A stretch of 64,000 nt of DNA from Clostridia bacterium (GTDB taxonomy: Bacteria; Bacillota; Clostridia; Oscillospirales; Acutalibacteraceae), in the NCBI GenBank assembly GCA_017410605.1, contig JAFQQN010000006.1, forward strand, positions 1 through 64,000. Direction: 5' to 3'. Made by a program: the position numbers and the translations under genes. The notes under the pieces were generated by a model. That model did not search any database and was not told the DNA's origin. It worked only from the letters and a program-made list of their open reading frames with translations. Shown here one piece after another: positions 1 through 55,732 of this stretch (the stretch's first letter is position 1; each line of letters begins with the position of its first letter).

Positions 1-89
1 AAGAATAAAGCAAAAATTTAGTCCGTAGGTGGAGTGTGATTTCTTTGAGGTATCCTTGTGTAGTACAAGTAGTATATCGAAAAGCTTTT

Positions 90-120
90 AAGCACTTATC
101 TTCGGATAGGTGCTTTTTTC
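90..120 (+). terminator. Rho-independent terminator
   Basis: An 11-bp stem (one G-T pair) closes a TTCG tetraloop and is followed by a T run. It ends a forward transcript that begins left of the window. No gene is seen in 1-298 apart from this site. Confidence 0.75.
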
Positions 121-298
121 TTTGTATTTTTGTTTTCTGACAAAATTACTGTCAGAGGACAATGTATCCAAAAGAAGGTAGTTTTAAAATGTCGAGTTGT
201 TGTTCAAATTGTGACGGGAAGTTAGTTGCACCAAAGGCTTGGTGCCGAGTACTACAGTCTGAGTTCTGCGACAGACTGAGAATCACTAGCAGAAAATC

Positions 299-800
299 TT
301 GTGCATTAAGCATACTGTGTGCCGAATATCCGTTGATGGTAAGGATGTAATTGTTCGCAAAGATACTACGAAGAATAAGACGAGTCTTAGAACGTTACCC
401 CTAATACCTGATGTTGAAAAACTATTGCTTAAAACCAAAAAGCAGCAAGAGAGCAACAGAAGAAAATGTCGCAATGCGTACAACAAGAAATTCCTTGATT
501 ATGTTTGTGTAGACAGTTTGGGCGTATTACTTAAGCCCGACTATCTGACACAGCATTTTGAAATTATAATTAAAAAGAAACAACTTAAAGTATATTCGGT
601 ATCACGATTTGCGACACTCTTGCGCTTCGTTACTGCTTGCCAACGGTGTATCATTAAAAGAAATCCAAGACTGGTTAGGCCATTCGGATTTCAGCACAAC
701 GGCAAACATTTATAGCCATTTAGAGTATGGAGCCAAGGTCAAGTCTGCTAACAAAATTGCAGAAAATTTGAGCCTTGAGGAAAAGACAAAGGACGGGTAA
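299..800 (+). pseudogene. Broken tyrosine recombinase (integrase), C-terminal part
   Basis: Two forward frames together give the C-terminal half of a phage/ICE-type tyrosine recombinase. The first (from about 299) contains the strand typical of these enzymes ending in SLRTLPLIPDVEKLL. The second (609-800) holds the catalytic end: RHSCASLLLANG, the LGHSDFSTT histidine box and the nucleophile tyrosine in IYSHL. The shift between frames lies near 590-610, where the HTxR region should be. The N-terminal arm and core-binding domains are missing, so this is a decayed gene and not a programmed frameshift. It ends about 150 bp from the 3' end of the split tRNA-Leu, a usual position for an integrase that uses a tRNA 3' end. 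It is distinct from the intact integrase at 7855-8808. Confidence 0.8.
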
Positions 801-910
801 ATCCCGTCCCATACATAACTTATTTCTAACAGATTTCTAACGGATTTTTGGTAGTAATACCTTGTTTTGACATTGTAATCACTTGAATTTAAAGAGATTT
901 TTGGACAAAG

Positions 911-950
911 AAAATCTCTCAAACCCGCATAAACACTGGGTTTGAGAGAC
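911..950 (-). terminator. Terminator of the tRNA-Leu 3' half
   Basis: A perfect 12-bp stem (915-926 with 938-949) lies directly 3' of the CCA end of the split tRNA-Leu, and its reverse-strand tail is T-rich. It is the original terminator of that tRNA gene. Confidence 0.8.
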
Positions 951-952
951 GA

Positions 953-1010
953 TGGTGCGGATAACAGGAATCGAACCTGCACCGAGTTGCCCCGACTAGA
1001 ACCTGAATCT
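953..1010 (-). tRNA. Split tRNA-Leu(CAG), 3' half
   Basis: Read on the minus strand, this piece runs from the anticodon arm (AGATTCAGGTTCT) through the long variable arm and T arm to the 3' acceptor strand TATCCGC, discriminator A and an encoded CCA. The matching 5' half is 8.2 kb away at 9223-9262. Joined at the shared 11-bp core they give an 87-nt tRNA-Leu with a perfect acceptor stem (GCGGATA/TATCCGC), a CTAGA/TCTAG anticodon stem and a CAG anticodon. The DNA now beside this half does not supply a replacement D arm or 5' acceptor strand. The gene should therefore be non-functional while the element is integrated. Confidence 0.9.
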
Positions 1011-1110
1011 TACGTGCCAACCGCACACCGCTTTTCTGCTGAGAATGCCAGTCTTTTCGGGATATTTCGGCGGTTCGGAAACTCGTCAAAAATGGTGTAA
1101 AAACCTGAAT
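1001..1110. repeat. Left 110-bp terminal direct repeat of the integrated element
   Basis: Identical base for base to 9122-9231. It starts and ends with the tRNA anticodon-loop core (ACCTGAATCT at 1001, AACCTGAAT at 1102). This means the left end carries two tandem attachment cores about 100 bp apart. Confidence 0.95.
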
Positions 1111-1170
1111 TTTACGAGTGTTCTATCCTACCATTTATCCGAAAAATTTTGTACCTATAATGTAACCCTG

Positions 1171-1288
1171 CGTAAGACTATTACGCTTTTTCACTCGTAA
1201 GACTTCACGATTCCTGAGGAAAGTCTTATTCGCATTCCACCAAGAACGTTTTGCCTCATTTCATAGTAATTATATCTAAAGTCTTACG
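1171..1288. other. Cluster of inverted 10-mers, candidate integrase arm sites or iterons
   Basis: The motif CGTAAGACT occurs at 1171 and 1196. Its reverse form AAGTCTTA(C/T) occurs at 1221 and 1279. The extended form TTTCACTCGTAAGACTT (near 1190-1205) resembles sequences at the other end of the element (about 8838-8880). The position inside the left end fits integrase arm-type sites. An origin for the neighbouring ATPase is the alternative. The 1111-1522 gap otherwise shows no gene. Confidence 0.45.
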
Positions 1289-1410
1289 AAAAGTAAAGTG
1301 GTTCCCCAAAAGTTTTTTAAAAAGTTTACGATTACACTATAAAAAGGCTGTAAGGAACAACAAAAGGTGAGTAAAAGTTTTTTATAGGGTATCAAATTTA
1401 ATACTCAGCC

Positions 1411-1476
1411 CACAAATAAAGGCTACCATTTTTAACGGTTTTTAAGTCAGTTTAAGCCGTATTTAATGGTAGCCTT
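1411..1476 (-). terminator. Hairpin terminator after the large ATPase gene
   Basis: The 12-bp stem AAGGCTACCATT / AATGGTAGCCTT has a long internal loop that can pair further. It lies just downstream of the reverse-strand ATPase gene, and the reverse-strand tail is T-rich (TATTTGT). Confidence 0.55.
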
Positions 1477-1522
1477 GTGTTACTTAAACACTTTTAATGG
1501 TTAAAGGGGTTAATTTTAAAAT

Positions 1523-3085
1523 TTAATTATCATCATCAGCGGTGGACTCGTCAATAAGCTGGGCAAGAATCTTGCGATTTTCGTCTATATCAAAGACAAT
1601 AGGCTCACGTCCCAACTTGATAGCCTTTCTTATTACCCAATCGGTAGTAATGCTTATTTCACTATTACCGTCCGAGTTCTTTTTAATAAATATGGTTACT
1701 CCCTTACTGGATAATGCGGATTCATATTTTTTTAATTCAGAACTAAAATGGTTGGAAGCCTTAGGGTATGCCTCTCTAGGATAAACATCACTATCATTTT
1801 CGTTCATAAAATCCCTTAATGCCTTATATAAGAATGTCATAGTACTACACCATTCGCCGTCATTTTCCTTAAGGAAGTCTATAAGCAAACGAATCAACAT
1901 AGCGTTTTCGCAAGTTATCTCCATTTGTCTGTCCTTATTAGACTTTAACACCTCGTCAAATTCCTTGCCCCTATCTCCCATAGCTTCAGCTACAGCATAA
2001 CCGAATCTATGAAAATCGGCTAATCTTATAGGGTTTTCAATTTTTACATTGGGGGCAATTTTGAGAGCTGAGGAAAGCAAATCAAAGATACCGCCTAGTA
2101 TATATGGTAAGTCCTCGTTGAACGAATCCCATATTTCGCTTTCTTCCAATCTATTACTATCTCTAATAAGTTTTGTTGAAAAGAATAAAACACGTTCCGC
2201 AAGGTCAGCACGAAAGACAAAATTTGAAATACCATTAAGACACATACTGCTCTTTAAATGAGTACAATCTATATCCTTATTTGTGTAGTATTGCCTTTCC
2301 GTACTGCTTGTTCCAGTTACAACCTTGCATAAAAAATCACTTTGCTTATCTGTTAACCTTGAAATATTATCAAAAGCGGTGTAATAACAAGCATTTAACC
2401 TTACTCTTAAATTGTTAAGAGAATCTGGAAAAGATTCCAAATCACTAATAGAGGGGTCAATGATTTTTTTAACAATTCTTGATAATGTGCTTTTACCAGA
2501 GCCGTTTGTACCATTTACAGATATAGACGGATATACAATATTGGGGTTAAAACAAGTTACTATATATACAGCGAATAATAGCTTTTCTTCTGCCGATATA
2601 TTAAGGTACTTATATAGACGTTCCCACCCTCTCTCACTATGAATCGGTGTAACTTGTGGTAACTGGTCTTTGCTTTGAATAAACATTGGGTAGTTGTTAT
2701 CTTCAATTTTCCAACCGTCTTTGTCGATTTTTACGCATTTACCATTAGATAAGTCGTAAATAATTGAATTATCTGCATAGGGTGAAATGCGATACTTTGC
2801 TTCCGTTATTTCCTTGTTGTAGGCAAGATTTTTGATATAGTCAATACAATCTCTCATAGTTGTACTGATAGGAAATGAGCCTGTAAGTTCCTTAAACTCG
2901 CTTTTTACGTAGAATATAAATTCAGCACTATTTAAGGATACATTACACGTCTTTCCGTTTCGTGTGATTTTCGCAAAGATATCCGTATCCGTCCTTAACA
3001 GCGGATAATCTTTCATCATATCAATTAAGATATCTTCTTGATTGGCTTTCTTGCCCTTAGGGGCGGTTTTCTTTTTTGCACTCAT
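1523..3085 (-). CDS. Helicase/primase-like P-loop ATPase (D5/SF3-like)
   Basis: A 520-residue cytoplasmic ATPase of the kind found in phage satellites and integrated plasmid-like islands, probably driving replication of the element. Visible motifs are Walker A GTNGSGKST at residues 192-200, a Walker B-like hydrophobic strand ending FDN at 238-240, a sensor CLNGIS at about 282-287, and a candidate arginine finger in ADLAERVL (R298). The N-terminal ~95 residues are lysine-rich and then may hold a substrate domain. The C-terminal ~120 residues look like a winged-helix region. The start is ATG at 3085 behind AGGAGGTAC. It is a paralogue of the shorter protein at 3358-4263, aligned from about residue 98. 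The class is inferred from motif order; SF3 versus another AAA+-like clade cannot be settled by eye. Confidence 0.65.
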   Translation of the reverse strand: MSAKKKTAPKGKKANQEDILIDMMKDYPLLRTDTDIFAKITRNGKTCNVSLNSAEFIFYVKSEFKELTGSFPISTTMRDCIDYIKNLAYNKEITEAKYRISPYADNSIIYDLSNGKCVKIDKDGWKIEDNNYPMFIQSKDQLPQVTPIHSERGWERLYKYLNISAEEKLLFAVYIVTCFNPNIVYPSISVNGTNGSGKSTLSRIVKKIIDPSISDLESFPDSLNNLRVRLNACYYTAFDNISRLTDKQSDFLCKVVTGTSSTERQYYTNKDIDCTHLKSSMCLNGISNFVFRADLAERVLFFSTKLIRDSNRLEESEIWDSFNEDLPYILGGIFDLLSSALKIAPNVKIENPIRLADFHRFGYAVAEAMGDRGKEFDEVLKSNKDRQMEITCENAMLIRLLIDFLKENDGEWCSTMTFLYKALRDFMNENDSDVYPREAYPKASNHFSSELKKYESALSSKGVTIFIKKNSDGNSEISITTDWVIRKAIKLGREPIVFDIDENRKILAQLIDESTADDDN

Positions 3086-3261
3086 TTTGAGTACCTCCTA
3101 AAATAATTATAATGTCAGCCGTACAAGTCCCTCTTGAACGTCTGCAATATAAATAAAGGGGAAAGCTGAAAACCCATAAGGCATTTTTACAAGAAAATCT
3201 TGAAAAAACCTCAACTTTTGCAACTGTAAGAAACAAATCCGCAACAAAAAAGAGCTTAAAA

Positions 3262-3303
3262 GTCAAAAAGATTGGCACTATCGACTAAATAATCGGTAGT
3301 GCC
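3262..3303 (-). terminator. Terminator after the short ATPase gene
   Basis: A GGCACTACCGA / TCGATAGTGCC stem has a TCTTTTTG tail on the reverse strand. It lies between the two ATPase genes, so they are probably separate transcripts. Confidence 0.6.
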
Positions 3304-3357
3304 GTTTAACTTTTATTGTGCAAGAGGTAGATTTTTTGCTGTTTCCTGCATTCTGCC

Positions 3358-4263
3358 TTAAATCAAGCCTTTTATATGTGTTTCTATATGATTTTTCAGT
3401 ATATCGGTAAAGTTATCTCCGTACCCTCCCATAGCCTCAGCTACTGCATAACCGAATTTATGAAAATCTGCTAGACGAATAAGATTTTCAAGGTTAATAT
3501 ACTGATGAATATCAAGAGCCGTAGCCAATAGGTCAAATATACCACCTAGAATGAAAGGTAGATCTGCATTAAAATCATTACACAAGGTGCTTTTTTCTAC
3601 ACGGTTTTTATCCAACGATTTCATTGTGAATGATAACGTTCTTTCGGATATATCAGCATATTCGAGGAACTGGGGATTACCAGTAAAACAAAGCCTATTA
3701 TCAAAATGTATATGTTCTTCTTTATTGTATTTTTTACGGCAAATGGAAGCTTTTATTATAGCCATATAAAACATATCTTTTCTTTTAGGGGACAGCTTGT
3801 AAACGTCATCAAACACTTCAAAATAGCCATTACTTAAAAGCACTATCAAATCACTAGGAGTAAGGCTGTTTGCAACGAAATTTGCATACGTTGTTGGGTC
3901 AACAATAGTTTTTAGCATTCTTGACAAAAAAGTTTTTCCGCTAGCTGACTCTCCCTTTATACATATAGTAGGAAGATATATAGACGGATTGAAACAACAA
4001 ACTAAAAACACCTTTAGCAGTAGTTTTTCATCCTCCGATATATTTAGGTACTTGTCGAGTCTATTCAAGCCGTTATCACTTTTGATAGGCTCAACCTGAG
4101 GTAATTCCGTAGGTCTTTCAGCAAACAAATTTAAGTGGTTTTCGCTCACTTCCCAAGCGTTATTGCTTATAGTTACAGTTTTTTCTTTACTCAGCTTATA
4201 GACGATAGAATCGTCAAAACTGGATATACGATAAGCACCCTTTTTCTTCTTATTCTCAGCCAT
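3358..4263 (-). CDS. Short paralogue of the helicase/primase-like ATPase
   Basis: A 301-residue protein related along its length to residues ~98-400 of the upstream-lying 520-residue ATPase. Shared features are the YRIS opening, the NPSIYLP strand, Walker A GESASGKT (104-111), an FDD Walker B-like end (151-153), a TGN sensor (194-196), an ISERTL candidate arginine finger, and the segment FADFHKFGYAVAEAMG-like near the C-terminus (here LADFHKFGYAVAEAMG). It lacks the first ~95 and last ~120 residues of its paralogue. I chose ATG at 4263 because AAAGGAGAT lies 8 bases before it; an in-frame TTG 18 bases earlier overlaps that site. It may be a subunit of a mixed ring, a regulatory partner or a decaying duplicate. 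The intact ATPase motifs argue against simple decay. Confidence 0.65.
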   Translation of the reverse strand: MAENKKKKGAYRISSFDDSIVYKLSKEKTVTISNNAWEVSENHLNLFAERPTELPQVEPIKSDNGLNRLDKYLNISEDEKLLLKVFLVCCFNPSIYLPTICIKGESASGKTFLSRMLKTIVDPTTYANFVANSLTPSDLIVLLSNGYFEVFDDVYKLSPKRKDMFYMAIIKASICRKKYNKEEHIHFDNRLCFTGNPQFLEYADISERTLSFTMKSLDKNRVEKSTLCNDFNADLPFILGGIFDLLATALDIHQYINLENLIRLADFHKFGYAVAEAMGGYGDNFTDILKNHIETHIKGLI

Positions 4264-4349
4264 TTTATTATCTCCTTTCAAAGCTATAATGCTTTCTAAA
4301 AGAATACCATAAAAAGCGTTTCTATTGGTTGCTATTAAGATGTTTTTTG

Positions 4350-4390
4350 CAACAAAAAACCGTTACCGATTTTTATATCAGTAACGGTCT
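4350..4390 (-). terminator. Terminator after the lipoprotein gene
   Basis: A CCGTTAC/GTAACGG stem is followed on the reverse strand by a TTTTTTGTT tail. It is placed downstream of the lipoprotein gene. Confidence 0.65.
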
Positions 4391-4519
4391 TATTTTTGGT
4401 ATCAGCCTAAAAGCAATTTTAAGGTGTTTTCCGCACGTTTTACCGATTTCATACGATAAGGTGGGGTAAGCCTTAAAAACAACGCTGAGGGCAAAAGGAA
4501 CAGCGGAGAGGGTGTAATA

Positions 4520-5500
4520 TCAATCAAACCATATTTCGGGGTAAAGGAAATATAAATCCCCTCCGTCCCTGTAATCTTCGATCCTCGCAAAGATACTACA
4601 CTTTTTACCTATATCATCATCAGTTAAGTAATAGGACTTTTCGCTGGAGTCTATCAGCTCCGTATCGTCATAGAAATACAATACCGAACATTCATATATT
4701 TTTGAGGAATCGGCAAAATAGGGGTCATTCAGTTGTATAGTGATAGGTTCTTCAAGCTGTAAGCAGTATTTACCAATATCAATGGTAAGGTTTCCAGTAC
4801 TCATTATTGTACCACTTACCAAAATTCTTTCGTCTACATTTACATTGAAATCAACGTCAATTTCCGTATTGTTGCTAGTGTTGTTATCGGTACTAGGTGT
4901 TGATGATTCTTCGGGGGGATTTTTTGTAGGGATATAAGTACCCGTGCAAATAATAGGCAGTTCCACTCCCAATAGTTCATCAAGACTTGTTATAAAAATA
5001 TGCTTTGTTCCATCTGTGCATATTCTATATTCTATGTCGATATCCTCGTCTAAAGGTGAAATAAATTTATAACTCCAACCATAAGCAAATGAATCTTTAT
5101 AATAACCTCCTTCGTACTCGGCATAGTCTATATACTTTGCAGTTGACATATCGACTTTGAGTTCTCTATATGCATTACTGTTTTTCTCTGTAAACACAAA
5201 AACTATTTCTGTATCGTCATTAACACCTTTTCCTGCGAAAACAGCAAGATATCTGGTATCAGACATTTCTGTAGGATTTGACTCAAAATAAGAAACAGAA
5301 GACCTTGAATTATAAAAATTAGCGTTTTCTTCCCACCACTTATAATCAGCGGTATATGTAGTTTCTTGTTCTTTGTTTGTACTTTCGCCACCGTTTTGAC
5401 CTTTATTATCGTTAGAATTACAGCCAACGAGTCCAAACAATAGTATAATTATAGTAAACAAACTGAGTATTCTTATTGAGATAGGGTGATTTGTAGTCAT
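4520..5500 (-). CDS. Secreted lipoprotein of unknown function
   Basis: A 326-residue protein with a lipoprotein signal peptide: hydrophobic residues ~9-24 and lipobox LVGC (Cys27). A Ser/Thr/Asn/Gly/Glu-rich linker follows. The mature part has two segments: one of about 150 residues rich in Tyr and Trp, and, after a second low-complexity linker (PPEESSTPSTDNNTSNN), a C-terminal ~100-residue beta-rich domain with alternating hydrophobics that looks OB-fold-like. It is anchored outside the cytoplasmic membrane. The start is ATG at 5500 behind AAGGAGG. It is transcribed divergently from the XRE/cohesin-dockerin pair. I do not recognise a named family. Being cargo of the mobile element, it may alter the host surface. 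Confidence 0.65.
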   Translation of the reverse strand: MTTNHPISIRILSLFTIIILLFGLVGCNSNDNKGQNGGESTNKEQETTYTADYKWWEENANFYNSRSSVSYFESNPTEMSDTRYLAVFAGKGVNDDTEIVFVFTEKNSNAYRELKVDMSTAKYIDYAEYEGGYYKDSFAYGWSYKFISPLDEDIDIEYRICTDGTKHIFITSLDELLGVELPIICTGTYIPTKNPPEESSTPSTDNNTSNNTEIDVDFNVNVDERILVSGTIMSTGNLTIDIGKYCLQLEEPITIQLNDPYFADSSKIYECSVLYFYDDTELIDSSEKSYYLTDDDIGKKCSIFARIEDYRDGGDLYFLYPEIWFD

Positions 5501-5722
5501 AGATTTTTACCTCCTTGGGGACAAGCTGAATCGTTACCGCCGAATACAGCCAATTATTCACATTATATTATATCACAAAATCGTGAATAAAGCAACTATC
5601 AGCAACAATTTTGTACTGGTTTTGCAACCACTTTTTAAGAATATGTCAAATGCAACTATAAAGAGCCTCTATGTTTCAATGAGAAACGCTGATTTTGTTA
5701 TCATATTATAGAGGTGATGTTT

Positions 5723-6040
5723 ATGGTTATTTGTCTATCTGTACGCCTTAAGGAACTTCGCACAAGTAAGAATCTTACACAAGCACAAGTGGCTCAGTAC
5801 GTAGGAGTTACAAGAGCCGTTATAAGTGCCTATGAAACTGATATACGTCAACCGTCCTATGACATCTTGATTAGGCTAGCTGTCCTATATGGGGTAACTA
5901 CCGATTATCTACTGTGTATAGAGGGAAAACGGTATGTTGATATATCAGCATTGACAGATCGAGAAGCTGCCGCCGTATATGAGATGATAAATTTGTTTAT
6001 GGAAAACAAAAAAGAACTGAAAGGAATACATAAGCTATGA
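5723..6040 (+). CDS. XRE-family DNA-binding regulator
   Basis: A 105-residue protein with an N-terminal Cro/CI helix-turn-helix (LKELRTSKNLTQAQVAQYVG, then AVISAYETDIRQPSYDILIRLA) and a short helical C-terminal tail that probably dimerises. I chose ATG at 5723 because GAGGTGAT lies 8 bases before it; GTG and ATG codons just upstream lie inside that site. Its stop overlaps the next start (ATGA at 6037-6040), so it is translationally coupled to the cohesin-dockerin protein. It sits between divergent transcripts, a usual place for the element's master repressor. The upstream gap has an inverted TTATTCAC/GTGAATAA pair that could be its operator, though this is only a guess. Confidence 0.85.
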   Translation: MVICLSVRLKELRTSKNLTQAQVAQYVGVTRAVISAYETDIRQPSYDILIRLAVLYGVTTDYLLCIEGKRYVDISALTDREAAAVYEMINLFMENKKELKGIHKL

Positions 6041-6726
6041 AGAAAAAACTTTTATCCCTTATTATGGCGGTATGCCTTGTAACAACGTGTATGCTCTCTA
6101 TGGGTATATCAGCGTCAGCGGCAACCCCTACAATAATCGTTATGGAAAGAGAATGTAAAGTCGGTGATATGGTAGAGCTTGAAGTATATGCTAATGAGCC
6201 TCAAAGCTATGCTTGTATAGTTTTCTCTCCGTCTTTCGACCATTCGATTTTTGAAATTGTCGGTGTAAACTGCAATATAGAGAGTGGTACTTTCCTTTAC
6301 AACGAGGATACTGAAAATCCTAAATTTATATGGTATAATACTGAGAATTATACAACAAGTATTAGTGAGATTCTTTTCACTATTTCGCTGAGGGTACTTG
6401 AAGACGCACCTGTCGGCAAACACGCTGTTACCGTAGACTATGAAGCAAAGAACATTTGCGACGAAAACGGTGAACTTGTAGAAGTGGAGGTGCGACAGGG
6501 TTCTGTCACTACCTTTCTCAGCATCCGAGGGGATTCCGACGGTGATTTACTTATCACTGGGTCTGACGTTGTTATGCTTGCTCGTTATTTGGTGGATTTG
6601 GAAACGGAAATCAACCAAGGGGCAGACGTAAACGGTGATGGCAGTATTGACGGTCGAGATTTGGTTAAGCTGTCAAGATACTTGATAGACCTTGAAGAAA
6701 TCGACAATCCGTATAATCAGCCTTAA
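6037..6726 (+). CDS. Secreted cohesin-like plus type I dockerin protein
   Basis: A 229-residue secreted protein. Residues 1-28 form a signal peptide ending in ASA. Residues ~30-160 look like a cohesin-type beta sandwich (opening VGDMVELEVYA, central strands, then the VGKHAVTVDY strand). Residues 165-221 form a type I dockerin: two Ca-binding loops, DSDGDLLITGSD and DVNGDGSIDGRD, each followed by a helix of the form VxLxRYLxDLE. Dockerins bind cohesins on scaffoldins, and a cohesin recruits dockerin-bearing enzymes. One short protein with both is a minimal adaptor or self-assembling unit. The ATGA overlap with the XRE gene means joint expression. Its place on a tRNA-borne mobile element is unusual. 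The cohesin assignment is weaker than the dockerin. Confidence 0.8.
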   Translation: MKKKLLSLIMAVCLVTTCMLSMGISASAATPTIIVMERECKVGDMVELEVYANEPQSYACIVFSPSFDHSIFEIVGVNCNIESGTFLYNEDTENPKFIWYNTENYTTSISEILFTISLRVLEDAPVGKHAVTVDYEAKNICDENGELVEVEVRQGSVTTFLSIRGDSDGDLLITGSDVVMLARYLVDLETEINQGADVNGDGSIDGRDLVKLSRYLIDLEEIDNPYNQP

Positions 6727-6843
6727 AACATATCCAACGGCGGTACGGCGGTAACTTTTCAAAAAACATAATTTTTCTATAAACAAATAATCTCATACGT
6801 TCAAAGGAGTATGTTGACTATGGCTTACGCCATAGCAACGAAA

Positions 6844-6892
6844 GGGAGTATTTTGCATAGGCAAAGCCTAGCAAAATGCTCCCACATTTTTT
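6844..6892 (+). terminator. Strong terminator after the cohesin-dockerin gene
   Basis: An 18-bp near-perfect stem (GGGAGTATTTTGC.. / ..GCAAAATGCTCCC) with an AAA loop is followed by a T-rich tail. A smaller ATGGC/GCCAT hairpin lies just upstream (about 6820-6835). Confidence 0.8.
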
Positions 6893-6901
6893 ATGTATAA
6901 A

Positions 6902-7180
6902 TTACTCTGTATCATAATTAACATTACCTACTTCTACCATAATTTTCATAGCAAGAGTAAAACCCTCTACAAAAGCGTTAACCTCAGTAACCCCTAGCAG
7001 TTCATTGTTACAATCTTTATACTTTTCAAAGGTTTCTTTTTGCTTATCCGTTAGGGTAGATAATAGTTCTTCCTCATTCCTACTGGATAGCTTTTCAAGG
7101 TGTCTTAGCCTATCTATATTCCTAGCTGTTCTTTCATTAGGTTGAATATTCCCATAATACAAATTTTCAAGAGTAGTCAT
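6902..7180 (-). CDS. DUF6809-like small protein
   Basis: A 92-residue helical protein opening MTTLENLYYGNIQPNER. This resembles the short proteins with an LYYGNIxPxE start that are frequent on Firmicutes ICEs and phages (DUF6809). The rest is amphipathic helix with a Glu/Lys/Arg-rich middle and a hydrophobic helix near the C-terminus (VEGFTLAMKIMVEV). The function is unknown. AAGGAAAGG precedes the ATG. It faces the cohesin-dockerin gene across a shared terminator. The family name is given from memory of its start motif. Confidence 0.6.
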   Translation of the reverse strand: MTTLENLYYGNIQPNERTARNIDRLRHLEKLSSRNEEELLSTLTDKQKETFEKYKDCNNELLGVTEVNAFVEGFTLAMKIMVEVGNVNYDTE

Positions 7181-7334
7181 ATCTTATTACCTTTCCTTTC
7201 AAGAGTCTAATACTAGGGATAATTTTTCGGACGTTGCCGAAAAATCACCCCAACCGTTATACTCTTTCCCTATAAAAAATTGAATAAATTTCAAAAAGTA
7301 TCTCCGTATATCCGTTACAGTAAAATACTTATAT

Positions 7335-7420
7335 TTTGGGGACGAGCGTAAGCGAAGTCCCCTCAACCTTTTAATACATATACAGTTGACGGAGCGTAGC
7401 GTAGTCAACGTATATGTATT
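7335..7420. repeat. Two hairpins with GAGCGTA(A)GCG loops
   Basis: Hairpin 1 (7336-7366) pairs TTGGGGAC with GTCCCCTCAA around GAGCGTAAGCGAA. Hairpin 2 (7372-7420) pairs AATACATATACAGTTGAC with GTCAACGTATATGTATT around GGAGCGTAGCGTA. The stems differ but the loops are alike. They fill most of the gap 7181-7499; a 69-codon reverse frame across them is explained by the hairpins and is not called a gene. Confidence 0.6.
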
Positions 7421-7499
7421 AGATTATTCTTAGCGGTAAAAAATCTATAACTTTCAAGATTTTATCGCCGTATCGCCGTTACACCTTATAGGCTGATAC

Positions 7500-7841
7500 T
7501 CAGTTATCAAAGCCGATTATCCATACTAGCCTACCGTCTATCAGCCTTAGGAGTGCTTTATAGTTCCACCCCTTAGGAATACCTGACGGATAGAGAAAAC
7601 GCAAAACGGTGTCAAATTTCCGCTTTTCTAGGCATATAACCGTAGTCCACCCAATATGCTTAGAAATACATAAATTGCTGTCTATTTCTCTCAGTAGACC
7701 GTAAACACGTTTACTATCGGGGAACTGAGGGGATAGGCATTGCCGACAGCCTTGCCTTATTGCTTGTTCTCCACTCATAGCAATATATACGGCTACGGTG
7801 TAGCCTATATCGGGAGAATCCTTGTTTTTGTACTCTTTCAC
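7500..7841 (-). CDS. Unknown 113-residue protein downstream of the integrase
   Basis: A short basic protein that starts with GTG at 7841 behind GGGAGGTTTAGCT, 13 bases after the integrase stop, so it is probably cotranscribed with it. It has no signal peptide or membrane segment. It has Cys residues at GCRQCLSP and CISK and several Trp residues, and looks like a compact alpha/beta domain. An excisionase would fit the position but usual Xis proteins are shorter and have a visible winged helix. I do not recognise the family. Confidence 0.5.
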   Translation of the reverse strand: MKEYKNKDSPDIGYTVAVYIAMSGEQAIRQGCRQCLSPQFPDSKRVYGLLREIDSNLCISKHIGWTTVICLEKRKFDTVLRFLYPSGIPKGWNYKALLRLIDGRLVWIIGFDN

Positions 7842-7854
7842 AGCTAAACCTCCC

Positions 7855-8808
7855 TCAGTTATTAAAGCCTACTTTTGCTTGATTTCTTACAGTTCCTAAG
7901 GTGTCGAGAGGGTTATAATCACTATAATCCTTAGACAAATCACTACTGAACATATTTACATACTCTTTTACCACAGTTAAATCACTATGACCGAGCAGTT
8001 TTTGAAGTCTAAAGATGTCCCCACCGTTGAGAATCCAACGTTTAGCGAATGTATGACGGTAAAGGTGGGCTGAGGTTTTGCTTACCCCTCTAGCCTTGTT
8101 ATACTTAGCCAACATTTCTTGATAGGAACGGATCTCGCCTTGTCCTCCGTAGGAATTACAGAAAACATAATCGTCAAGCTCTCCCTTGCGGTAAGTAAGG
8201 TATTCTTTCAGTATTACCGCCAACGATGAAGCCATAGGTACGATTTGAGCCTTACGGTTCTTCATTTTGTTAAGCTGGATAACGTTATTGTCAAAATCCA
8301 AGTCCCTAATTTGAAGATTCAAGACGGTTGATATACGGTTGCCAGTAGCAAGTAAGTAATTGGAAAATACCCACGTTTTGTACTCGTTGAACTCACAGCG
8401 TTTAAGGTTAGGTTTCTTCAACAGCTTTTTCAGTTCTTCATCGGTGTAGGTTTCCTTGATTTTCTTATCAGCCTTAGGCAGTTTAATTTTGTATTCGGGA
8501 GTAAAGCCGTTATTCATAAGGTAGTAGAAAAATGCTCTTATATCCCTTATGTAGGATTGGACGGTTATATCGTTGCACCCTCTCTTTTGTAGATAGAGGA
8601 TAAAGCCGTCAATAACGTCTTGGTCAATCTCAGACGGTTTCAGTTCCTTGCCGTTAAGGTACTTTTGAAATACTGAGAATCTAACCTCGTAGATTTCAAG
8701 TGTTTTGTCGGATAGGTTTCTAGCTCTGCATTTTGCCATATAGTCGGCAAAGCATTCTTCCAACGTTACGGTATCAGCGTCTAAGGGTTGCATTTTGATT
8801 TTTGCCAT
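7855..8808 (-). CDS. Tyrosine recombinase (integrase) of the element
   Basis: A 317-residue site-specific recombinase. Residues ~10-105 form the SAM-like core-binding domain (LEECFADYMAKCRARNLSDKT start). The catalytic domain shows R158 (ATGNRISTVL), H248xxR251 (AHLYRHTFAKR), H274 (LLGHSDL) and nucleophile Y283 (VVKEYVNMF). All expected residues are present and length is normal, so it should be active. It is one gene away from the right end, with the tRNA-Leu copy and attachment repeat beside its start. This fits it as the enzyme that recombines the ACCTGAATCT core of tRNA-Leu. ATG at 8808 follows AAGGAAGT. Confidence 0.92.
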   Translation of the reverse strand: MAKIKMQPLDADTVTLEECFADYMAKCRARNLSDKTLEIYEVRFSVFQKYLNGKELKPSEIDQDVIDGFILYLQKRGCNDITVQSYIRDIRAFFYYLMNNGFTPEYKIKLPKADKKIKETYTDEELKKLLKKPNLKRCEFNEYKTWVFSNYLLATGNRISTVLNLQIRDLDFDNNVIQLNKMKNRKAQIVPMASSLAVILKEYLTYRKGELDDYVFCNSYGGQGEIRSYQEMLAKYNKARGVSKTSAHLYRHTFAKRWILNGGDIFRLQKLLGHSDLTVVKEYVNMFSSDLSKDYSDYNPLDTLGTVRNQAKVGFNN

Positions 8809-8903
8809 AATAAATTACTTCCTTTCATAAAAAAATTTCACTCGTCGGACTACCTCAAATGAGTTTTGAAATCCTACGAATGAAATCTAAGCCATTATTA
8901 TGG

Positions 8904-8944
8904 AAAAAGAAAAGACCTTGTAAACTGTAATAGCTTACAAGGTC
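8904..8944 (-). terminator. Terminator of the intact tRNA-Leu
   Basis: A 12-bp GACCTTGTAAGC / GTTTACAAGGTC stem just after the CCA end is followed on the reverse strand by TTTTCTTTTTCC. Confidence 0.8.
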
Positions 8945-8946
8945 GG

Positions 8947-9033
8947 TGGTGCGGGTAACAGGACTTGAACCTGCACAGCCTTGCGACCAATAGAACCTGA
9001 ATCTATCGCGTCTGCCAATTCCGCCATACCCGC
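8947..9033 (-). tRNA. tRNA-Leu(CAG), intact, inside the element
   Basis: 87 nt including encoded CCA. The acceptor stem is GCGGGTA/TACCCGC with discriminator A. The anticodon stem ATAGA/TCTAT frames the loop TTCAGGT, so the anticodon is CAG. The long variable arm is typical of leucine. It is the same isoacceptor as the split gene but differs in several stem positions. Its anticodon loop carries the same integration core (8994-9004). No strong promoter is seen directly upstream. Confidence 0.93.
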
Positions 9034-9121
9034 ATATAGGTTTACCTTATTTTTACTGACGGAGAGGTAACACCTCCGTAGTTGTACCTAAAATCCAGTA
9101 TTTTTCACTCTTAGAATGAAT

Positions 9122-9231
9122 ACCTGAATCTTACGTGCCAACCGCACACCGCTTTTCTGCTGAGAATGCCAGTCTTTTCGGGATATTTCGGCGGTTCGGA
9201 AACTCGTCAAAAATGGTGTAAAAACCTGAAT
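9122..9231. repeat. Right 110-bp terminal direct repeat of the element
   Basis: A perfect copy of 1001-1110. It begins with ACCTGAATCT and ends with AACCTGAAT, which continues into the tRNA-Leu 5' half. Confidence 0.95.
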
Positions 9232-9262
9232 CTAGCGCGTCTGCCAGTTCCGCCATATCCGC
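9223..9262 (-). tRNA. Split tRNA-Leu(CAG), 5' half
   Basis: Minus-strand 5' acceptor strand GCGGATA, D arm (GGCGGAACTGGCAGACGC) and the 5' side of the anticodon arm to the core AGATTCAGGTT. It completes the 3' half at 953-1010. Past the core it runs into element DNA that does not resemble a tRNA, so no complete tRNA can be processed from it. Confidence 0.9.
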
Positions 9263-9369: not shown

Positions 9370-9398
9370 ATTATACTTTAAATATAAACCGTTGTCAA
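9370..9398 (-). promoter_or_regulatory. Consensus sigma-A promoter of the split tRNA-Leu
   Basis: Read on the minus strand: TTGACA, 17-bp spacer, TATAAT, about 105 bases before the tRNA 5' half. It is the native tRNA promoter. No terminator is seen between it and the intact tRNA-Leu at 8947-9033, so it may now transcribe that gene. The rest of 9267-9640 contains only the operon promoter at 9549-9577. Confidence 0.85.
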
Positions 9399-17873: not shown

Positions 17874-17913
17874 TTTATAAACTTCTTCACTATTACCTTT
17901 TACTTATTACCTT

Positions 17914-18115
17914 AACTTCCCGCCCTGCCGTAAGTGGCAATTGATAACCTGCAGTAAAGGCAGGTGGGTGACCGCCCCGCGGTTTCGCGCTCCCTTCTTC
18001 CAATAACGGTCAAAGCCGTACCGGGAGGTCTGCAAGCCCGCCGCAGGAGAAAGGCCCCCTATAAAAAAGGTTGTAGGGTTATGCTTTGCCACGGTCCGCG
18101 AACAGGGCAGGAAAA
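17914..18115 (-). ncRNA. ssrS: 6S RNA (SsrS) candidate
   Basis: A ~200-nt GC-rich stretch folds as a long rod on the minus strand. The ends pair (TTCCTGCCCTG with CAGGGCGGGAA). This is followed by an internal loop with TGTTCGC opposite TTACGGC, as in known 6S RNAs, then GTGGCAA/TTGCCAC, a large open middle region and GC-rich distal hairpins. 6S RNA mimics an open promoter and holds the sigma-A RNA polymerase in stationary phase. A 61-codon frame across it is not a gene. I see no clear promoter or T-run, so the ends are approximate. Confidence 0.7.
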
Positions 18116-18132
18116 CTAACTATTAAATGAAT

Positions 18133-55386: not shown

Positions 55387-55575
55387 GAAACCGCCCAGGT
55401 TTCGGGACGACTTGAACCAATTATCGCGCGGCTTTGCCGCTTGCCCTCTTGCGGTGCCCAAAGTTCATTACGGCTTGGGGCGCCTATGAACTTTGACCGC
55501 GGCGCTTCGTTTTGCTCGCTGTATCACCCGCAGGGTGCGCTCGCGACGTCACTGGGCGAGCACCGCTCGTCGGCC
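55387..55575. repeat. GC-rich nested hairpin cluster
   Basis: In the 372-bp gap before tRNA-fMet, base use becomes far more GC-rich than nearby DNA. Visible pairs include GAAACC/GGTTTC, GCGGC/GCCGC, AAAGTTCAT/ATGAACTTT and TGCTCG/CGAGCA around CACCC/GGGTG. No gene is supported here. Confidence 0.65.

Positions 55576-55656: not shown

Positions 55657-55732
<76 letters not shown>

Follow-up and report, generated by a model that had tools for sequence, protein, structure and literature searches.

The window, the whole stretch of DNA that was analyzed, comprises 64,000 nt of contig JAFQQN010000006.1 (GCA_017410605.1; positions 1-64,000, forward strand) and begins at the contig end. Genomes were searched by region. 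Close to this end, two halves of a host tRNA-Leu(CAG) gene flank an element of 8,212 bp that occupies positions 1011-9222. A preliminary description of this DNA had reported both halves, which lie on the minus strand, together with their common 11-bp core, AACCTGAATCT, and these sequence facts hold. When the halves are joined in silico, they form the flawless 87-nt tRNA-Leu(CAG) that had been described, with all stems paired. The attachment region contains the following features, where no strand is assigned to cores and arms.

953-1010, minus strand: 3′ half of the split host tRNA-Leu(CAG), from the CCA end to the anticodon-loop core; perfect tRNA when joined to 9223-9262
1000-1010: core1, AACCTGAATCT, the left attachment junction (core scan)
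1001-1112: left 102-bp attachment arm, taken as native, including core2 (1102-1112, AACCTGAATTT); direct repeat, homologous to the arm beside the displaced half in genome G010
8914-8944, minus strand: intrinsic terminator directly behind tRNA B (terminator scan)
8947-9033, minus strand: complete, putative replacement tRNA-Leu(CAG), here tRNA B, with its own core at 8994-9004 (ARAGORN; Rfam, 53.9 bits; compensatory changes relative to locus L040)
9034-9120, minus strand: U′, leader of tRNA B, putatively captured from an earlier host; resembles the split gene's own leader (D2, 78%) and is 99% identical in L040
9121-9131: core3, TACCTGAATCT (core scan)
9122-9233: right (extra) copy of the 102-bp arm, including core4 (9223-9233), the right attachment junction; direct repeat, with the same junction in L040 on another host
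9223-9262, minus strand: 5′ half of the split host tRNA-Leu(CAG), including the core (joined-tRNA test and uninterrupted homologues)
9370-9398, minus strand: host tRNA promoter, TTGACA-N17-TATAAT, a 12/12 sigma-70 match directed toward the 5′ half and then tRNA B

Read in the direction of the tRNA, the order is host promoter, 5′ half, core4, 102-bp unit, core3, leader U′, tRNA B, and terminator, followed by the integrase, the other genes, core2, the second 102-bp unit, core1, and the 3′ half. A direct repeat of 119 nt with 97% identity is common to both junctions (1001-1119 versus 9122-9240), and a scan for the 11-bp core with at most one mismatch found five copies in 9.5 kb (starting at 1000, 1102, 8994 within tRNA B, 9121, and 9223), where about 0.15 would be estimated for random sequence. 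The long repeat and the number of cores exclude chance as the origin of the junction pair. The 102-bp arm occurs at both ends of the element and nowhere else in the genome, and its two copies are identical. Since the arm beside the displaced tRNA half in G010 is homologous to the left unit, the left unit is regarded as native and the right-hand copy as extra.

The uninterrupted gene that had been proposed as a check is present in the same-genus genomes G006, G002, G003, and G001, with 96-99% identity over approximately 91 bp. As previously noted, neither junction rebuilds the host tRNA, and neither holds a proper tRNA by stem pairing or Rfam. The host 5′ half abuts arm sequence and not a 3′ half, so the junction is not of the classical kind that is rebuilt with element-borne 3′ sequence. 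An ARAGORN tRNA call at 953-1039 was rejected as a chimera in which arm sequence poses as the 5′ half next to the genuine 3′ half; mispairs occur in both the acceptor and the D stem of this call, which has no Rfam hit. A tRNA intron or a split-tRNA gene was also rejected, as a mobile element separates the halves and the gene is uninterrupted in relatives.

The remaining features of the element are its protein-coding genes.

1523-3085, minus strand: putative P-loop ATPase-like replication protein, 520 aa; no Pfam or PHROGs family, conserved in G010 and at locus L042
3358-4281, minus strand: 307-aa ORF, paralogue-like to the 520-aa ATPase (ORF translation; no family)
4520-5500, minus strand: putative lipoprotein, 326 aa (N-terminal signal and Cys in the translation; no Pfam family)
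5714-6040, plus strand: HTH regulator (Pfam HTH_3, 3.9e-17)
6037-6726, plus strand: cargo gene for a secreted protein that combines a cohesin-like and a dockerin I domain (Pfam)
6902-7180, minus strand: DUF6809 protein (Pfam, 1e-24)
7500-7841, minus strand: 113-aa protein kept with the integrase in relatives (ORF; 95% DNA identity in L040, homologue in G010)
7855-8808, minus strand: tyrosine integrase, 317 aa (Pfam Phage_integrase, 2e-28; PHROG integrase; relatives beside tRNA genes)

No phage structural, relaxase, oriT, packaging, or helper-response families were recognized in the 8.2 kb with Pfam, PHROGs, and NCBIfam, and the carrier is not recognizably a temperate phage. The 520-aa ATPase has distant plasmid relatives at approximately 26% identity, and no relatives of it were found in viral contigs. 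Phage records yielded distant integrases only, at approximately 30% identity at best. The cohesin-like and dockerin I cargo is unusual for a mobile element and suggests a role in plant-fibre degradation complexes.

The preliminary description had concluded that the interrupted tRNA is left unrestored by the element. That conclusion overlooked tRNA B, a complete tRNA-Leu(CAG) that the element itself brings, positioned between the right junction and the integrase, approximately 200 bp from the junction, and oriented like the split gene. On that strand, a scan between the promoter at 9398-9370 and tRNA B found neither a terminator nor another promoter matching at least 8/12 positions. Because the 12/12 promoter lies upstream with nothing of either kind in between, transcription from the host tRNA promoter most likely continues across the orphan 5′ half to tRNA B. 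With a complete gene of the same anticodon, a host promoter upstream, and a terminator behind, no loss of tRNA output is expected while the element is present. The two further claims, that the tRNA becomes whole only upon excision and that tRNA output is set by the state of the element, thus need to be recast: the host gene is indeed cut and precise excision would mend it, but its function appears to be already replaced by the carried tRNA, and it is the source of the tRNA, one gene copy or the other, that depends on the element. In both the window genome and the L040 genome, each an incomplete assembly, B alone was recovered as tRNA-Leu(CAG), and the other Leu genes found are TAA and GAG. B is likely to be the sole tRNA-Leu(CAG) copy in both genomes, judging from these assemblies, whose incompleteness may conceal a further tRNA-Leu(CAG) or a TAG isoacceptor that reads CUG.

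Locus L040 (JAFXCZ010000002.1, a metagenome-assembled genome from sheep rectum) provides an independent copy of this arrangement. The same block is present there, consisting of core4, the 102-bp unit, core3, U′, tRNA B, the terminator, and the integrase. It is joined to a different host tRNA-Leu(CAG) 5′ half (acceptor GCACCTG versus GCGGATA) with an unrelated flank, and the host promoter upstream is also a 12/12 match. Insertion into a different host gene places the element boundary at core4 and shows that the whole tRNA travels with the element. The displaced host 3′ half of L040 was not found by its acceptor pattern, and the distal end lies outside the assembly. A query with window positions 8900-9233 against 398 family genomes returned no further full-length copy, and the arm-leader junction was not found in viral contigs. 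The window and L040 copies agree at 97-99% in the arm, leader, and integrase but at 91% in tRNA B, which has eight differences. With pairing taken from the ARAGORN drawing, six of the eight fall into three pairs of compensatory changes, at 3-81 in the acceptor, 11-25 in the D stem, and 47-56 in the variable arm, and the other two (57 and 58) lie outside those three stems. Compensatory pairs are the signature of a tRNA that has been kept folded, although a swap for another functional tRNA allele would look alike. The greater divergence of B relative to its flanks could reflect such allele replacement instead of slow compensated evolution. Capture would also fit with the 98% identity, over 91 nt, between tRNA B and tRNA-Leu(CAG) genes of other genera in the family.

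Several observations were made at or near other tRNA genes. A palindrome-rich unit of approximately 151 bp, which species of the genus share at 90-93% identity, starts with the first ~20 nt of tRNA-Leu and lies just upstream of intact tRNA-Leu genes (G006:C93:10644-10794, G002:C40:24535-24685, G001:C2:1763-1913, G003:C37:11920-12070, G003:C40:6317-6467, two copies in G004:C80, and G004:C91). Related units are found at L037 (12042-12453) and L040 (9370-9540). No Rfam family was found for this unit, which looks like either a small element in the D-loop region with a duplicated tRNA 5′ end or a conserved leader RNA. Window positions 55446-55500, near a tRNA-Met gene (55657-55732), match the palindromic unit upstream of the L040 tRNA-Leu at 82%. 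A 6S RNA gene lies at window positions 17913-18116 (Rfam). Orphan tRNA-Leu(CAG) 5′ halves cut at the anticodon loop also occur at L100 (G007:C39; 4434-4687) and L101 (G005:C100; 209-504), and each precedes a complete tRNA-Leu(CAG). These could be scars of similar replacing elements.

The integrase family adjoins many different tRNA genes, and its close members place the window element in perspective. G010 (loci L037 and L041) encodes a 94%-identical integrase and is the closest complete comparison. It has the classical layout, with the integrase next to a complete tRNA-Leu(CAG) and the distal end marked by an exact 62-nt displaced 3′ half. Loci L048 and L054 show the same classical signature. 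Given this classical restoration by so close a relative (94% integrase identity), the window case departs from a restoring family and does not belong to one that simply cuts its targets. Homology between the window and the classical relatives covers the integrase and all of tRNA B and ends just upstream of the tRNA, which indicates that B would be the tRNA rebuilt by a classical ancestor in an earlier host. By this comparison, the window element appears to represent a recent switch from restoring to replacing within a normally restoring integrase family. More distant integrase relatives (47-48%) are found at L064 (upstream of 10001), L056 (upstream of 3511), and L049 (upstream of 7034), where the 3′ sequence joined to the host tRNA 5′ halves (Arg-TCT, Lys-CTT, and Arg-TCT, respectively) is degenerate or not tRNA at all. 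The 39-kb viral record of L064, searched in full, yielded no tRNA. These three are possible further non-restoring insertions.

Taken together, the locus is very likely an integrative element of about 8.2 kb whose tyrosine integrase acts at the anticodon-loop core, splitting the host tRNA-Leu(CAG) and replacing it with the whole tRNA B that it carries. In the mechanism we propose, the integrase would recombine the 11-bp core in the anticodon loop of tRNA-Leu(CAG), and tRNA B, transcribed from the captured host promoter, would serve as the cell's working tRNA-Leu(CAG). B itself would be a frozen copy of the tRNA rebuilt by a classical ancestor in an earlier host. That ancestor may have excised via a core upstream of the tRNA, taking the 5′ half and leader along, and duplication of the 102-bp arm would then have provided an attachment core separate from the tRNA. 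The presence of the 102-bp unit at both ends could have arisen, for example, from a circle with tandem arm copies or from a tandem insertion followed by loss of one copy. Precise excision between core1 and core4 should rebuild the host gene. With moderate confidence, we extend this account to its evolution: a non-phage element would have turned a restoring site into a tRNA-replacing one by capturing a rebuilt tRNA with its leader, duplicating its arm, and using the host promoter, which would leave the host dependent on it until precise excision, and the switch would be recorded by the presence of both forms in one 94% integrase clade.

Three other explanations were weighed against replacement. 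The first is tandem accretion with no replacement role, in which B is simply what one integrated element rebuilt, a separate event left the orphan 5′ half as debris, and the block was never mobile as a unit. The locus is a hotspot, with a decayed element X and another 3′ half adjoining, and the orphan 5′ halves of G005 and G007 stand before complete tRNA-Leu genes without a related integrase beside them, and both points favor accretion. The L040 block, however, sits on a different host 5′ half and flank with its boundary exactly at core4. Moreover, tRNA B pairs internally without a mismatch, whereas a chimera of the host 5′ half and the 3′ half of B has two mispairs, and accretion is accordingly improbable. 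Still less probable is the reading put forward in the preliminary description, in which tRNA-Leu(CAG) is silenced by the element and needs excision to work, as in regulated gene integrity. In favor of this reading, neither junction is functional and joining the halves gives a perfect tRNA, but the element contains, 200 bp from its edge, an intact tRNA with the same anticodon that lies under the same promoter and has been kept folded between copies. The function lost until excision that defines regulated gene integrity would not be expected where a complete gene of the same anticodon is present. An assembly artefact from mixed strains or collapsed repeats is hardly credible: the genome is metagenome-assembled, the arm copies are identical, and the window starts at a contig end, yet the right junction recurs in the independent L040 assembly with another host flank, and the left junction matches the native end of G010.

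The replacing element appears to be the latest arrival at this site. A decayed integrase of the older element X lies outside the 8.2-kb element at 162-800 on the plus strand (Pfam Phage_integrase remnant at 609-800; frame-broken ORFs). Contig C23 of the same genome (G000) starts with the reverse complement of window positions 1-93, and this 93-bp overlap of contig starts makes C23 and the window contig (C5) probable neighbors. A second 3′ half, left by another element, is located at C23:6658-6719 (98%), and when it is joined to the window 5′ half, the product is likewise called as tRNA-Leu(CAG). Element X spans window positions 1-950 and G000:C23:1-6719 (L095), between the two 3′ halves. The 3′ half in the window (953-1010) was probably brought by X. 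In the simplest order of events, X would have inserted classically, leaving the original 3′ half on C23, and the present element would then have split the rebuilt gene.

The closest known system is the tRNA-dependent lysogeny described by Guerrero-Bustamante and Hatfull for the actinobacteriophages Fionnbharth, LeBron, Gaia, and Mollymur (mBio 2024; PMC10865867). These phages use a core of 8-17 bp, do not reconstruct the target, and carry a tRNA of the same isotype, and related phages still reconstruct. The authors demonstrated dependence by experiment and left open how widespread it is. The window element shares the tyrosine integrase, the tRNA target, a short core within the host tRNA (11 bp), two junctions that are not rebuilt, a complete carried tRNA of the same isotype and anticodon (in L040 as well), and close relatives that still reconstruct. 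In contrast to the actinobacteriophages, it is an 8-kb element without recognized phage structural genes, resides in Clostridia, and has the 102-bp arm at both ends. Its tRNA B lies between junction and integrase, downstream of the captured host promoter and without a recognizable promoter of its own, whereas the Fionnbharth tRNA has its own promoter (PMC10865867). Dependence, experimental in the phages, is here what we infer. The window element would therefore seem to work like tRNA-dependent lysogeny while not being a strict member of it, as it is not recognizably a phage. Prophage Lj965 of Lactobacillus johnsonii, as cited in PMC10865867, is likewise reported not to rebuild its tRNA and to carry the cognate tRNA, and comes from a Firmicute; it differs, on that citation, in being a prophage. 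Classical Islander-type anticodon-loop islands, including G010, share the integrase clade (94%), target, and core with the window element and have a displaced 3′ half at one end, but such islands bring no more than the 3′ half, with which the host gene is completed at the junction, whereas the window element carries a whole gene and leaves the host gene cut. Regulated gene integrity resembles the window case in that a host gene is split and becomes whole after precise excision, and it differs in that here a replacement is carried and no loss of function is expected. No tRNA-dependent integration outside phages was found among the papers listed by literature searches, which covered few subscription journals.

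The case extends tRNA-dependent integration to a small element without recognizable phage genes in gut Clostridia. The occurrence of closely related restoring and replacing forms makes the evolutionary switch between them testable. Use of the host tRNA promoter, if true, would account for expression of a carried tRNA that lacks a promoter. The tRNA supply of the cell probably comes to depend on the element, judging from the gene arrangement, and the replaced tRNA would bind the host to its element because imprecise loss would delete the sole copy found so far.
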